In this document: positions 30,475 to 36,661 of the stretch, in pieces
Layout of the letters: every line of letters begins with the position of its first letter
Numbering within the stretch: the first letter of the stretch is position 1
Assembly (NCBI GenBank): GCA_025350145.1
Contig: JANXYH010000164.1
Span: 1-48,484 of the forward strand
Reading direction: 5' to 3'
Length of the DNA: 48,484 nt
Source: Burkholderiales bacterium
GTDB taxonomy: Bacteria > Pseudomonadota > Gammaproteobacteria > Burkholderiales > Burkholderiaceae_C
The notes under the pieces: generated by a model
What the model saw: only the letters and a program-made list of their open reading frames with translations
Databases searched by the model: none
What the model was told of the DNA's origin: nothing
Translations under genes and position numbers: made by a program

Positions 30475-30558
30475 ACTTGCACCATTTGGAAGTGCTCTGG
30501 TTTTGTGCGAGACTGTGTGCAGTTCCTGAACAACACCCTCACCGACGAGGAGACACGC

Positions 30559-33173
30559 ATGTCTGCCCTGCCGCAAAGTTTTCTAGGCGCCGCCGCCAAC
30601 GACCCTGACGCCCAGGAGACCCGTGAATGGATGGACGCACTGAGCGCGGTCATCGCCAGCGAAGGCCCGGCCCGTGCCCATGACCTGCTGGAGAGGCTGA
30701 TCGACCAGGCCCGCCAGGCCGGCATCGACCTGCCGTTCTCGGCCACCACCGCCTACGTCAACACCATTCCCACCGACCAGGAAGAGCGCTGCCCCGGCAA
30801 CCTCGAGATCGAGGAGCGGTTGCGCGCCTACATGCGCTGGAACGCGATGGCGATGGTGGTCAAGGCCAATCGCCATGACCCGGCCGACGGCGGCGACCTG
30901 GGCGGGCACATCTCCTCGTTCGCCTCGGTGGCGACGATGTTCGGCGCCGGCTTCAACCACTTCTGGCATGGCGCCACGCCCGAGCATGGCGGCGACCTGC
31001 TCTACATCCAGGGCCATTCGGCGCCCGGCATCTATGCCCGGGCCTTCCTCGAAGGCCGGATCAGCGAGCAGCAGTTGCTCAACTTCCGCCAGGAGGTCGA
31101 CGGCCAGGGCCTGTCGAGCTACCCGCATCCGAAGCTGATGCCCGAGTTCTGGCAGTTCCCGACAGTGTCCATGGGTCTGGGGCCGCTGATGGGCATCTAC
31201 CAGGCGCGCTTCCTCAAGTACCTGCATGCCCGCGGCATCGCCGACACCAGCCGGCGCAAGGTCTGGGTCTTCTGCAGCGCCTGGACGGCCCGGTGCGTGG
31301 CAACGGCAAGATCATCCAGGAGCTCGAAGGCGAGTTCCGCGGCTCGGGCTGGAACGTCATCAAGCTGCTCTGGGGCGCCTACTGGGACCCGCTGCTGGCG
31401 CGCGACAAGGACCACAGCCTGCGCAAGATCATGATGGACACGGTCGACGGCGACTACCAGGCGATGAAGGCCAACAATGGCGCCTTCGTCCGCGAGCATT
31501 TCTTCGGCCAGCACCCCAAGACCGCAGAGATGGTGGCCAAGATGAGCGACGACGACATTTGGCGCCTGAACCGCGGCGGCCATGACCCGCAGAAGGTCTA
31601 TGCCGCCTACCACCGCGCGGTCAACCACAAGGGCCAGCCGACGGTGCTGCTGATCAAGACCGTCAAGGGCTTTGGCATGGGCAAGGCCGGTGAGGGCAAG
31701 AACACCGCGCACCAGACCAAGAAGCTGACCAACGACGACATCAAGAGTTTCCGCGACCGCTTCAACATCCCCGTCAATGACGCCCAGATCGACGCCGGCA
31801 TCCCGTTCTACAAGCCGGCCGACGACACCCCCGAGATGCGCTACCTGCAGCAGCGCCGGGCGGCGCTGGGCGGCTATCTGCCGGCGCGCCGGCCCAAGGC
31901 CGACGAGCAACTGAGCGTGCCGCCGCTGAGCAGCTTCCAGGCCACGCTGGACGCCACCGCCGATGGCCGCGAGATCAGCACCACCCAGGCCTTTGTGCGC
32001 TTCCTGACGGCGCTGCTGCGCGACAAGCAGGTCGGCCCGCGGACCGTGCCGATACTGGTCGACGAGGCCCGCACCTTCGGCATGGAAGGCCTGTTCCGGC
32101 AGATCGGCATCTACAACCCGGCCGGCCAGAACTACACCCCGGTCGACAAAGACCAGGTGATGTACTACCGCGAAGCGGTCGACGGCCAGGTGCTGCAGGA
32201 GGGCATCAACGAGGCCGGCGGCATGTCGAGCTGGATCGCGGCGGCCACGTCCTACGCCACCAATAACCGCATCATGGTGCCGTTCTTCGTCTACTACTCG
32301 ATGTTTGGCTTCCAGCGCATCGGCGATCTGGCCTGGGCGGCGGGCGACATGCAGGCGCGCGGCTTCTTGCTCGGCGGCACCTCCGGCCGGACCACGCTCA
32401 ACGGCGAGGGCCTGCAGCATGAGGACGGCCACAGCCATATCCTGGCCGGCACGATCCCCAACTGCGTGTCGTATGACCCGACCTTCGCCCACGAGGTCGG
32501 GGTGATCCTGCACCACGGCTTGAAGCGCATGGTCGAGCAGCAGGACAACGTCTACTACTACATCACCCTGCTCAACGAGAACTATCCCATGCCCGGCCTG
32601 AGCGCCGGCACCGAGGCGCAGATCATCAAGGGCATGTACTTGCTGCAAGATGCCAAGCCGACCCAGGCGCAACCGGTCGTCAACCTGCTCGGCTCGGGCA
32701 CGATCCTGCGCGAATCGATGGCGGCCAAGAAGCTGCTCGAGGCCGACTGGGGCGTAGCCGCCAGGGTCTGGAGCTGCCCCAGCTTCAACGAACTGGCGCG
32801 CGACGGCCAGGACGCCGAGCGCTGGAACCTGCTGCACCCGACCGCCACGCCGCGCCAGTCCTTCGTCAGCCAGCAGCTCAGCGGCCACGCCGGCCCTGTG
32901 ATCGCCAGCACCGACTACATCAAGGTCTATGCCGAGCAGATCCGCGCCTACCTGCCCAAGGGTCGGACCTTCAAGGTGCTGGGCACCGATGGCTATGGCC
33001 GCAGCGACTTCCGCGGCAAGCTGCGCGAGCACTTCGAGGTCAACCGCCACTACGTGGTCGTGGCGGCGCTGAAGACCCTGGCCGACGAGGGCACGGTGCC
33101 GGCGACGCGGGTCGCCGAGGCGATCGCCAAGTACGGCCTGAACACCGAAAAGATCAACCCCCTGTACGCCTGA
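30559..33173 (+). pseudogene. aceE: Pyruvate dehydrogenase E1 component AceE, broken by a ~100-base internal deletion
   Basis: Homodimeric-type E1 of pyruvate dehydrogenase. A good ribosome site (GAGGAGA, 30547-30553) precedes the ATG. The first frame gives 238 normal residues (MSALPQSFLG... to ...DTSRRKVWVF at 31272), then nonsense to a stop at 31432-31434. The correct protein resumes in another frame at QRLDGPVRGNGKIIQELEGE (31275 on) and continues for 632 residues to the stop at 33171-33173. About 33 residues are missing, the block that in AceE reads GDGEMDEPES...NCN and holds the thiamine diphosphate/Mg2+ ligands. Adding it back gives about 904 residues, the normal length. The protein as written cannot be catalytic. 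Confidence 0.9.
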
Positions 33174-33193: not shown

Positions 33194-34837
33194 ATGGCAT
33201 TGGTGGAAGTCAGCGTTCCCGACATTGGGGACTTCAAGGACGTGGCGGTGATCGAACTGCTGGTCAAGGTCGGCGACACGGTCAAGGTCGAACAAAGCCT
33301 GGTCACGGTGGAGAGCGACAAAGCCTCGATGGAGATCCCGTCCAGCCATGCCGGGGTGGTCCGGGCACTGCGGGTGGCGCTGGGCGACGTGGTCAACCAG
33401 GGCAGCCCGCTGGTCGAGCTGGAGGCCGCAGCCGTGGCGGCAGCGCCGGCCCCGGCCCCGGCGGCGGCGGCACCGGCAACGCCAGCCGCAGCCGCACCGG
33501 CACCGGCTCCAGCCGCCGCCGGCTCAGGCCGGGTCGAGGTGCAGGTGCCCGACATCGGCGACTTCGATTCGGTCGCGGTGATCGAGGTGATGGTCAAGGT
33601 CGGCGACACGGTCAAGGTCGAGCAAAGCCTGATCACGGTCGAGTCGGACAAGGCCTCGATGGAAATCCCGTCCAGCCATGCCGGCACGGTCCGCGAGATC
33701 AAGGTCAAGCTCGGCGACAAGGTTGCCCAGGGCTCGGCCGTGCTGGTCCTGGACGGCGTGGCCGGCGCGGTCGCCGCTGCGCCGGTCGCCGTGGCCGCGG
33801 CTGCGGTTGCGGCAGCGCCAGTCGCGGCGCCCGCAGCAGAGCGCACGCCGCCCACCGCCGCGCTGCCGCCGCATGAGCCGACGGCGCTCAAGGCGGCGCT
33901 GCCACATGCCTCGCCCTCGGTGCGGCGCTTTGCCCGCGAGCTTGGTGTGCCGCTGGACGAGGTCCGCGGCAGTGGCCCCAAGGGCCGGATCACCCAGGAC
34001 GATGTGCAGGGCTTCGTCAAGGGCGTGATGGCCGGCGCGACCCAGACCAACGCGCAGAAGGCGGTCGCGCCCAAACCCGCGGCGGCGGCGACCGGTGGCG
34101 GCATCCCGGGCCTGCTGCCCTGGCCGAACGTGGATTTCGCCAAGTTCGGTCCGGTCGAGCGCAAGGACCTGTCGCGGATCAAGAAGATCAGCGGCGCCAA
34201 TCTGCACCGCAACTGGGTGCTGATCCCCCACGTCAGCCACCATGACGACGCCGACATCACCGAGCTGGAGGCCTTCCGTGTCCAGACCAACAAGGACAAC
34301 GAGAAGGCCGGCATAAAGGTCACGATGCTGGCCTTCATGATCAAGGCGGCGGTTGCAGCGCTGAAGAAGTTCCCCGAGTTCAATGCCAGCCTGGACGGTG
34401 ACCAACTCGTCTACAAGCAGTATTTCCACATCGGCTTTGCCGCCGACACGCCCAACGGCCTGATGGTGCCGGTGCTCAAGGACGCCGACAAAAAGGGCAT
34501 CGTCCAGATCAGCACCGAGATGGGCGAGTTGGCCAAAAAGGCCCGCGACGGCAAGCTCGGCCCGGCCGACATGAGCGGCGCCTGCTTCTCGATCAGCTCA
34601 CTCGGCGGCATCGGCGGGCGCTACTTCACGCCGATCATCAACGCCCCCGAAGTCGCCATCCTGGGCGTGGCCAGGAGCCAGACCGAGCCACGCTGGGACG
34701 GCCGTGCATTCCAGCCGCGGCTGATGCTGCCGCTGTCGCTGTCCTATGACCACCGCGTCATCGACGGCGCCAGCGCGGCGCGTTTCTCGGTCTACTTCGC
34801 CAGCCTGCTGGCGGATTTACGCCGCATCGTTCTCTGA
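33194..34837 (+). CDS. aceF: Dihydrolipoamide acetyltransferase (pyruvate dehydrogenase E2)
   Basis: 547 residues. It forms the core of the complex and passes the acetyl group to CoA. Domains: lipoyl domain 1 (Lys43 in VESDKASMEIP), an Ala/Pro-rich linker, lipoyl domain 2 (Lys153 in the same motif), a second linker, the E3/E1-binding domain (about 239-276, SPSVRRFARELGVPLDEVRG), and the catalytic domain ending SLSYDHRVIDGASAARFS with His520. The ribosome site GGAG is six bases before the ATG, 20 bases after aceE. The two lipoyl domains share long nearly identical DNA tracts. Intact throughout. Confidence 0.96.
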   Translation: MALVEVSVPDIGDFKDVAVIELLVKVGDTVKVEQSLVTVESDKASMEIPSSHAGVVRALRVALGDVVNQGSPLVELEAAAVAAAPAPAPAAAAPATPAAAAPAPAPAAAGSGRVEVQVPDIGDFDSVAVIEVMVKVGDTVKVEQSLITVESDKASMEIPSSHAGTVREIKVKLGDKVAQGSAVLVLDGVAGAVAAAPVAVAAAAVAAAPVAAPAAERTPPTAALPPHEPTALKAALPHASPSVRRFARELGVPLDEVRGSGPKGRITQDDVQGFVKGVMAGATQTNAQKAVAPKPAAAATGGGIPGLLPWPNVDFAKFGPVERKDLSRIKKISGANLHRNWVLIPHVSHHDDADITELEAFRVQTNKDNEKAGIKVTMLAFMIKAAVAALKKFPEFNASLDGDQLVYKQYFHIGFAADTPNGLMVPVLKDADKKGIVQISTEMGELAKKARDGKLGPADMSGACFSISSLGGIGGRYFTPIINAPEVAILGVARSQTEPRWDGRAFQPRLMLPLSLSYDHRVIDGASAARFSVYFASLLADLRRIVL

Positions 34838-34855: not shown

Positions 34856-36661
34856 ATGGCACTGACAGAAGTCAAGGTCCCCGACATCGGCGACTTCAAG
34901 GACGTGGCGGTGATCGAGATCCTGGTCAAGCCCGGCGACCGCATCGCCCTGGAGCAAAGCCTGGTCACGGTCGAGTCCGACAAAGCGTCGATGGAAATCC
35001 CGGCCAGCGTCGCCGGCGTGGTCAAGGAAATCAAGGTGGCGCTGGGCGACAAGCTCAACCAGGGCTCACTGCTGTTGACGGTGGAGGCAGACGCGGCGGC
35101 TGCCGCGCCAGCAGTTTCATCCGCGCCCACGCCAGCGCCTGCGCCAATCCTTTCTGCCGCGCCGGCCGCCGCCAGCTTCAGCGGCGTCGCCGACCTCGAA
35201 TGCGATCTGCTGGTCCTGGGCGCCGGCCCCGGCGGCTATTCGGCCGCCTTCCGTGGCGCCGACCTGGGCCTCAAGGTCGTCATCGTCGAGCGCTATGCCA
35301 CCTTGGGCGGCGTCTGCCTGAACGTCGGCTGCATTCCGAGCAAGGCCTTGCTGCATGTGGCGGCGGTGATGGACGAGGTCAAGCACTTCGCCGACCTGGG
35401 TGTCTCGTTCGCCGCGCCGCAAGTCGATCTGCCCAAGCTGCTGGGCCACAAGAACAAGGTGGTGGGCAAGCTCACCGGCGGGCGGGCGGCAATGGCCAAG
35501 ATGCGCAAGGTGACGGTGCTGCGTGGCCACGGCAGTTTTGCCGACGCCCAGCACCTGACGGTTGAGGAGACCTCGGGCAGCGCCCAGGCCAAGACCGGCA
35601 AATCGCAGACGATCCGCTTCAAGCAGTGCATCATCGCCGCCGGCTCGCAGGCGGTGCGCCTGCCGTTCCTGCCCGACGATGCGCGCATCGTCGACTCGAC
35701 CGGGGCACTCGAATTGCGCACCGCGCCGAAGAAGATGCTGGTCATCGGCGGCGGCATCATCGGTCTGGAAATGGGCACGGTCTATTCCACCCTGGGCGCC
35801 AGGCTGGACGTGGTCGAGATGCTCGACGGCTTGATGCAGGGTGCCGACCGCGATCTGGTCAAGGTCTGGCAGAAGATGAACGCCGGCCGCTTCGACAAGC
35901 TGATGCTCAAGACCAAGACGGTGGGCGCACAGGCCTCGGACCAGGGCATTACGGTGCAGTTCGAAGGCCTGGACGGGGCCAAATCTGAGGCCACTTACGA
36001 CCTGGTGCTGCAGGCCGTGGGCCGGGTGCCCAATGGCAAGAAGATCGGCGCTGACAAGGCCGGCGTCGCGGTTGGCGAACGCGGCTTCATCCCAGTCGAT
36101 GTGCAGATGCGCACGAACGTGGCGCACATCTTCGCCATCGGCGACATCGTCGGCCAGCCTATGCTGGCGCACAAGGCGGTGCACGAGGCCCATGTCGCGG
36201 CCGAAGTTGCGGCCGGCGCGGTGCTCGGCGACGCCTCGTTGGCCAAGTCGCGGTTCGACGCCCGGGTGATCCCCAGTGTCGCCTACACCGACCCCGAGGT
36301 GGCCTGGGTCGGCCTGACCGAGGACGAGGCCAAGGCCCAGGGCATCCGGGTCAAGAAGGGCCTGTTCCCCTGGACCGCTTCGGGCCGGGCGATTGCCAAT
36401 GGCCGCGACGAGGGCTTCACCAAGCTGCTGTTCGACGACTCGGAGCAGGCCCACGGCCATGGCCGAATCCTCGGCGGCGGCATCGTTGGCACCCATGCCG
36501 GCGACATGATCGGCGAGATCGCCCTGGCCATCGAGATGGGCACCGACGCGGTCGATATTGGCAAGACCATCCACCCGCACCCGACCTTGGGCGAATCGAT
36601 AGGCATGGCCGCCGAGGTGGCGCACGGCACCTGCACTGACCTGCCGCCGGCCCGGCGCTGA
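34856..36661 (+). CDS. lpdA: Dihydrolipoamide dehydrogenase (E3) with an N-terminal lipoyl domain
   Basis: 601 residues. It reoxidises the lipoyl groups, passing electrons to FAD and NAD+. An extra N-terminal lipoyl domain (residues 1-80, Lys43 in VESDKASMEIP) and an Ala/Pro linker precede the flavoprotein: FAD motif LLVLGAGPGGYSAA, redox disulfide GGVCLNVGCIPSK (Cys154, Cys159), NAD motif MLVIGGGIIGLEMGTVYS, and the C-terminal active-site HPHPTLGESIG. The lipoyl domain is very like those of aceF. It lies 18 bases after aceF and ends at a strong terminator, closing the operon. This N-lipoylated E3 is a known beta-proteobacterial pattern. Confidence 0.96.
   Translation: MALTEVKVPDIGDFKDVAVIEILVKPGDRIALEQSLVTVESDKASMEIPASVAGVVKEIKVALGDKLNQGSLLLTVEADAAAAAPAVSSAPTPAPAPILSAAPAAASFSGVADLECDLLVLGAGPGGYSAAFRGADLGLKVVIVERYATLGGVCLNVGCIPSKALLHVAAVMDEVKHFADLGVSFAAPQVDLPKLLGHKNKVVGKLTGGRAAMAKMRKVTVLRGHGSFADAQHLTVEETSGSAQAKTGKSQTIRFKQCIIAAGSQAVRLPFLPDDARIVDSTGALELRTAPKKMLVIGGGIIGLEMGTVYSTLGARLDVVEMLDGLMQGADRDLVKVWQKMNAGRFDKLMLKTKTVGAQASDQGITVQFEGLDGAKSEATYDLVLQAVGRVPNGKKIGADKAGVAVGERGFIPVDVQMRTNVAHIFAIGDIVGQPMLAHKAVHEAHVAAEVAAGAVLGDASLAKSRFDARVIPSVAYTDPEVAWVGLTEDEAKAQGIRVKKGLFPWTASGRAIANGRDEGFTKLLFDDSEQAHGHGRILGGGIVGTHAGDMIGEIALAIEMGTDAVDIGKTIHPHPTLGESIGMAAEVAHGTCTDLPPARR

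Follow-up and report, generated by a model that had tools for sequence, protein, structure and literature searches.

The locus studied here raises the question of whether a bacterium has lost the E1 component of its pyruvate dehydrogenase or whether a draft genome has lost part of an intact gene. We analysed a stretch of 48,484 nt (hereafter the window; bases 1–48484 of contig C92) from the draft of a Burkholderiales bacterium (genome G000, 4.56 Mb in 211 contigs) in which the AceE frame from the ATG at 30559 reads through ...RRKVWVF (TTC at 31270–31272), after which QRLDGPVRGNGK restarts AceE at 31275 in a different frame that runs to the stop at 33171–33173. The aceE profile TIGR00759, 885 positions long, is accordingly matched by hmmscan in two pieces and two frames rather than at full length in a single open frame (Table 1).

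Table 1 Features of the aceE locus and of other E1-like genes in the same draft
Feature	Position	Strand	Remarks
aceE as a whole	30559–33173	+	without 100 nt at 31272–31275
aceE, N-terminal piece	30559–31271	+	238 residues to ...RKVWVF, last codon ends 31272; TIGR00759 positions 3–224
Junction CTGC	31272–31275	+	ambiguous point of the 100-nt loss versus 80 relatives
aceE, C-terminal piece, other frame	31275–33173	+	632 residues plus stop; TIGR00759 positions 259–884, 989 bits
Out-of-frame tail if read on from ATG 30559	31276–31434	+	first stop ends 31434; ORF 30505–31434, frame of 30559
aceF, pyruvate dehydrogenase E2, intact	33194–34837	+	TIGR01348 723.4 bits, cut-off 552.1
lpdA, E3 with N-terminal lipoyl-like part, intact	34856–36661	+	TIGR01350 458.4 bits, cut-off 408.8
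AceE-like E1 of contig C152, intact	L007:2023–4656 (G000:C152)	-	878 aa, GDGEMDEPES and NCN
Fused alpha-beta 2-oxoacid dehydrogenase E1-like protein of contig C112	L128:2973–6121 (G000:C112)		below cut-offs of matched families

To size the loss, the locus was compared with 80 fetched relatives, which are the best 80 of at least 586 matching stretches and not a random sample. When losses of 97 to 103 nt were tried, 100 nt fitted best for 80/80 relatives, sharpening the estimate of the initial annotation (about 100 bases, 3n+1). The spacing from VF to LQRLDG is exactly 33 residues in all 80, and the aceE frame is open at full length in 77 of them, the remaining three beginning at a contig end. 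In these relatives the 33 residues that join the two halves hold the GDGEMDE and NCN motifs, which supports the proposal that a single 100-nt event removed the thiamine diphosphate (ThDP) motif; relative to its relatives, the 100-nt deletion is a fact of the sequence record. The codon after VF is TGC in 60 of the 80, and if the lost codon was TGC as well, CTGC is common to both ends and the exact breakpoint is ambiguous over five positions, from 31271/31272 to 31275/31276. A CTGC microhomology involving a lost Cys codon, as initially suggested, is therefore possible. The closest AceE proteins among the listed matches are from Burkholderiales, with records titled Rubrivivax, Methylibium, Piscinibacter and Azohydromonas among them. 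Also among the closest listed is a metagenome bin titled Bordetella parapertussis (L009), whose AceE C-terminal part is 86% identical to that of the Rubrivivax-like window; judged by this sequence, the label is probably wrong.

The ThDP motif GDG...NCN that characterizes AceE (TIGR00759) is absent from the aceE of the window. The stretch includes the counterparts of Asp230 and Asn260, which we take to be the Mg2+/ThDP ligands of the E. coli E1. By a count along an alignment in which the C152 paralogue stands in for the window aceE, it corresponds to residues 228–260 of the solved E. coli enzyme (PDB 1l8a), and the numbering of both residues given at the outset agrees with the chain positions of that structure. 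Because the lost residues are 228–260 of the solved enzyme, the sequence as it stands should not encode a working E1. Ribosomal frameshifting was rejected as a rescue, in line with the initial annotation, because the motif itself is missing.

We then considered how widely the 100 nt are carried. In a genus sample of 20 other genomes, one per species and all of different species, 19 carry the site, the remaining genome (G017) being cut by a contig end before it. In 17 of the 20 a single open AceE covers the query completely or with only the first residue missing, and in G002 aceE is open but begins at a contig end. In the family sample (completeness of at least 90%), 117 of 119 other genomes are continuous across the site; of the exceptions, G103 gave no match and G126 (C234:7641–8396) matched residues 1–252 of the 327-residue query, a stretch that extends past the site. 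In the comparison with relatives advised in the initial annotation, all 80 fetched relatives carry the missing stretch with its motif, and no relative with a motif-less architecture was seen among these or the 117 continuous family genomes. No other genome examined shows the loss.

One genus member, G014, carries the 100-nt site but has a different aceE lesion, in which 40 residues (443–482 of the G003 protein) are gone in frame. This 120-nt gap lies in L187 (G014:C11:22600–25600), near 1491–1500, between FNIP and the EQ..VP..LETF stretch; GAGCAGCT flanks both sides of the missing stretch in G003, again a short repeat, and the gap may be either an artefact or a deletion. In a control with purL, a match was obtained in 18 of the 21 genus genomes and none of the 18 had such a gap. 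In G009 and G013 the purL match fell into two pieces that share a single open frame, in G010 the pieces lie on two contigs, and in G002 the gene begins at a contig end.

The quality of the draft bears directly on the question. Its completeness is 98.04% and its contamination 0.63%. With 211 contigs, a smallest noted contig of 2,621 bases and no 16S match (a weak sign, as 5 of 14 control genomes likewise lack one), it looks like a metagenome bin. Disrupted frames were sought with our own codon-usage frame model, which was trained on the sequences scanned and is blind to in-frame losses. From 38 stretches of the draft (572,108 bases, about one eighth of the genome) it returned three frame-switch candidates, compared with two from 24 stretches of relatives (480,000 bases). 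Two of the 38 stretches are short contigs consisting entirely of N (5,307 bases); these excepted, no N runs were present in the stretches read. The first candidate is aceE itself, with the switch called at 31271 and the next stop 161 nt later. The second lies in what by eye is a PAS/sensor-kinase-like gene on the minus strand (G000:C2, near 35449; L148:15449), where an apparent 4-base TGTC tandem, also judged by eye, seems to break the frame, and the third is short and close to a contig end. No wave of frame-breaking errors runs through the portion of the genome read, and with just three candidates in 572,108 bases a systematic assembly error is unsupported. In a protein comparison for larger gaps, aceE was the sole split gene, just 64 of 358 relative ORFs having matched at 60% or more, many of them from one operon. 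Apart from the aceE split, the same comparison gave seven internal gaps of 12–26 residues in the window; two fall within the aceF stretch, and one belongs to an alignment that ends at the aceE N-terminal part. The reverse comparison (own ORFs against relatives) gave no gap among the 20 of 346 own ORFs that matched.

We further examined the ends of the loss. When the 100-nt loss is set right after VF, 52 of the 80 relatives show an ambiguity of 4 or 5 nt and the other 28 one of 1 to 3 nt, and an overlap of at least 4 nt arises by chance in 2.6% of cases (random places and lengths of 60–159 nt in one relative's gene). The ends agree over CTGC, and over 7 of 8 bases with one mismatch in five of the six relatives displayed. 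The right end falls at the 31-mer most widely common to the reference gene and the relatives (30 of 76 others; position 810 versus a break near 817), a post hoc observation; a community assembly graph may tangle at such a 31-mer, a suggestion equally post hoc. Shared k-mers are enriched over the lost stretch, both as 21-mers (9.1 versus a mean of 3.7) and as 31-mers (3.1 versus a mean of 1.1). Extreme DNA conservation as the cause is unsupported, as 35% of windows are equally conserved.

If aceE had been inactive for long, its remnant might be expected to show it. In an invariant-column test of the window against 80 others (77 fetched relatives plus G003, G005 and G012), the N-terminal piece departed from none of 83 invariant columns and the C-terminal piece from 2 of 299, a slight excess on the side of a real deletion that 6 of the 80 relatives equal or exceed in leave-one-out comparison. 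We also compared the non-synonymous/synonymous ratio in 24 trios, each made up of the window, a near relative and an outgroup. It is greater on the window side than on the sister's in 10 of these trios, which overlap and cannot be counted as independent. The result varies by relative, the window being higher in 7 of 8 trios for L133 and L008, which again speaks for a real deletion, and in 3 of the 16 trios built on the remaining four relatives. Taken as sequence, the remnant gives no clear sign of long neglect. Very recent inactivation would leave no signal of relaxed selection, and the lack of clear decay is compatible with an artefact and equally with a deletion of very recent date.

The surroundings of the gene are those of a pyruvate dehydrogenase operon, with E2 and E3 genes alongside and the stretch aligning with G003 and G005. 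As the initial annotation had it, aceF and lpdA are intact, each scoring above its family cut-off; the lipoyl-like part of lpdA (residues 5–105) matches TIGR01348 below the cut-off of that family. A promoter/terminator scan returned six terminator-like sites, all upstream of aceE, and no promoter-like sites.

The initial annotation had left a recent loss, a different E1 or pyruvate route, and a faulty assembly as options. The search for a second E1 or another pyruvate route that had been recommended yielded candidates on contigs C152, C112 and C158. Apart from the aceE flank, the only match to the missing stretch in the available genome sequence is the diverged C152 paralogue, on which ground we rejected, for that sequence, a move of the piece to another place; the motif DNA pattern too has its single occurrence in this paralogue. 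The C152 paralogue scores 1465 bits against TIGR03186 (AKGDH_not_PDH; cut-off 1408.3) and 1304.9 against the aceE profile TIGR00759 (cut-off 859.9), and so by profile score it is nearer to the former; no E2 or E3 was seen among the ORFs in the 6 kb read around it. That it might act on pyruvate is a guess. Of the 20 other genus genomes, 7 carry diverged AceE paralogues whose identity to the AceE of G003 is 49–56%; G014 is one of the seven (53%). The C112 protein adjoins one with a weak E2/lipoyl match, likewise below family cut-offs. Contig C158 carries a 2-oxoacid:acceptor oxidoreductase alpha subunit (OAFO_sf) above cut-off with a beta subunit below it, and the search for a NifJ-type pyruvate:ferredoxin oxidoreductase gave three weak C158 matches, none above cut-off. 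The matches to PF00676 comprise the C112 protein, SucA on contig C2, which also carries SucB, a DXS on C42, just below its cut-off and cut by a contig end, and a transketolase on C131.

On balance we lean slightly towards the aceE gap being an artefact of the draft or library, or a minor variant, because aceE is central, no second genome examined shows the loss and the remnant looks as if under selection; losing E1 should come at a cost to a bacterium of this kind. A single join at short homology would have skipped exactly 100 nt by bringing the CTGC of the F-TGC codons onto the CTGC of LQRLDG, and through it the contig would come to display an aceE null allele. The join would have arisen during the making of the draft, whether a short overlap led to a chimeric or low-coverage join or a minor variant was adopted as the consensus; in the living population aceE would mostly be normal. 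Assemblers seldom make such joins without supporting reads, and real deletions also use short direct repeats; both points count against an artefact, as do the otherwise clean assembly sample and the lost 100 nt not being exceptionally conserved as DNA. In the portions of the literature available, low-coverage assemblies are described as producing spurious pseudogenes and frameshifts (PMC11017572) and chimeric reads are described as arising via microhomology in formalin-fixed samples (PMC8674242), and the sources returned by a literature search, to the extent of their accessible text, held no publication on this case.

A real and very recent deletion is a serious candidate to which we give somewhat less than even chances, a standing it owes to the short repeat at the ends and to an assembly that is otherwise clean in the portion read. 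On this view slippage or end joining would have used two CTGC copies spaced 100 nt apart. AceE would be dead, with acetyl-CoA coming from another enzyme, perhaps the C152 E1 working on the intact AceF/LpdA or the C158 oxidoreductase, or perhaps from acetate and fatty acids. This reading draws on one exact 100-nt event with a 4-nt repeat, on the intact, motif-bearing C152 paralogue that exceeds both cut-offs, on the OAFO_sf protein and on the paralogues of other genus genomes, but it has to contend with a loss seen in one genome alone and without clear decay, with a C152 paralogue closer to TIGR03186 and lacking a visible E2/E3 in its 6 kb, and with a C158 beta subunit and a C112 protein that stay under the cut-offs of their matched families. 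We regard as improbable the more specific proposal that the deletion is real and fixed and that pyruvate dehydrogenase is run by the AKGDH_not_PDH-type E1 of C152 docked on the intact AceF/LpdA; were it true, the genus would have been caught replacing its main E1, and G014, with a paralogue and another aceE gap, would be a second such step. That both pieces are still in use, as a motif-less functional protein (a structural E1 or a regulator) or as a two-chain E1 re-initiated at GTG 31293, is hardly credible: both are conserved and split transketolases exist among solved structures (6yaj, 6yak), but the motif-bearing architecture is universal in the 80 relatives, the N-terminal frame continues out of frame to 31434 and the two chains combined would still be without the cofactor site.

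Whether deletion or artefact, the aceE gap is an ordinary kind of event, and its meaning differs between the two. As the artefact towards which we lean, it would indicate that species-representative drafts may drop about 100 bases of core genes and so falsely suggest missing pathways, a caution to which the in-frame aceE gap of G014 gives weight. As a real deletion, it would make an environmental bacterium a natural aceE null and would allow a test of pyruvate as a substrate for the second AceE-like E1 of several genus genomes.

Compared with known systems, the locus resembles the homodimeric E1 AceE (TIGR00759; E. coli 1l8a) in that its two pieces jointly match the profile nearly end to end and stand before aceF and lpdA, and differs from it in lacking the 33 residues of the ThDP/Mg2+ motif and in being out of frame thereafter. 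It likewise resembles the real and spurious bacterial pseudogenes described in the accessible text of PMC11017572, being a core gene disrupted in a draft and intact in relatives; that text deals with frameshifts and internal stops in general terms, whereas the aceE of the window shows one clean loss of 100 nt.
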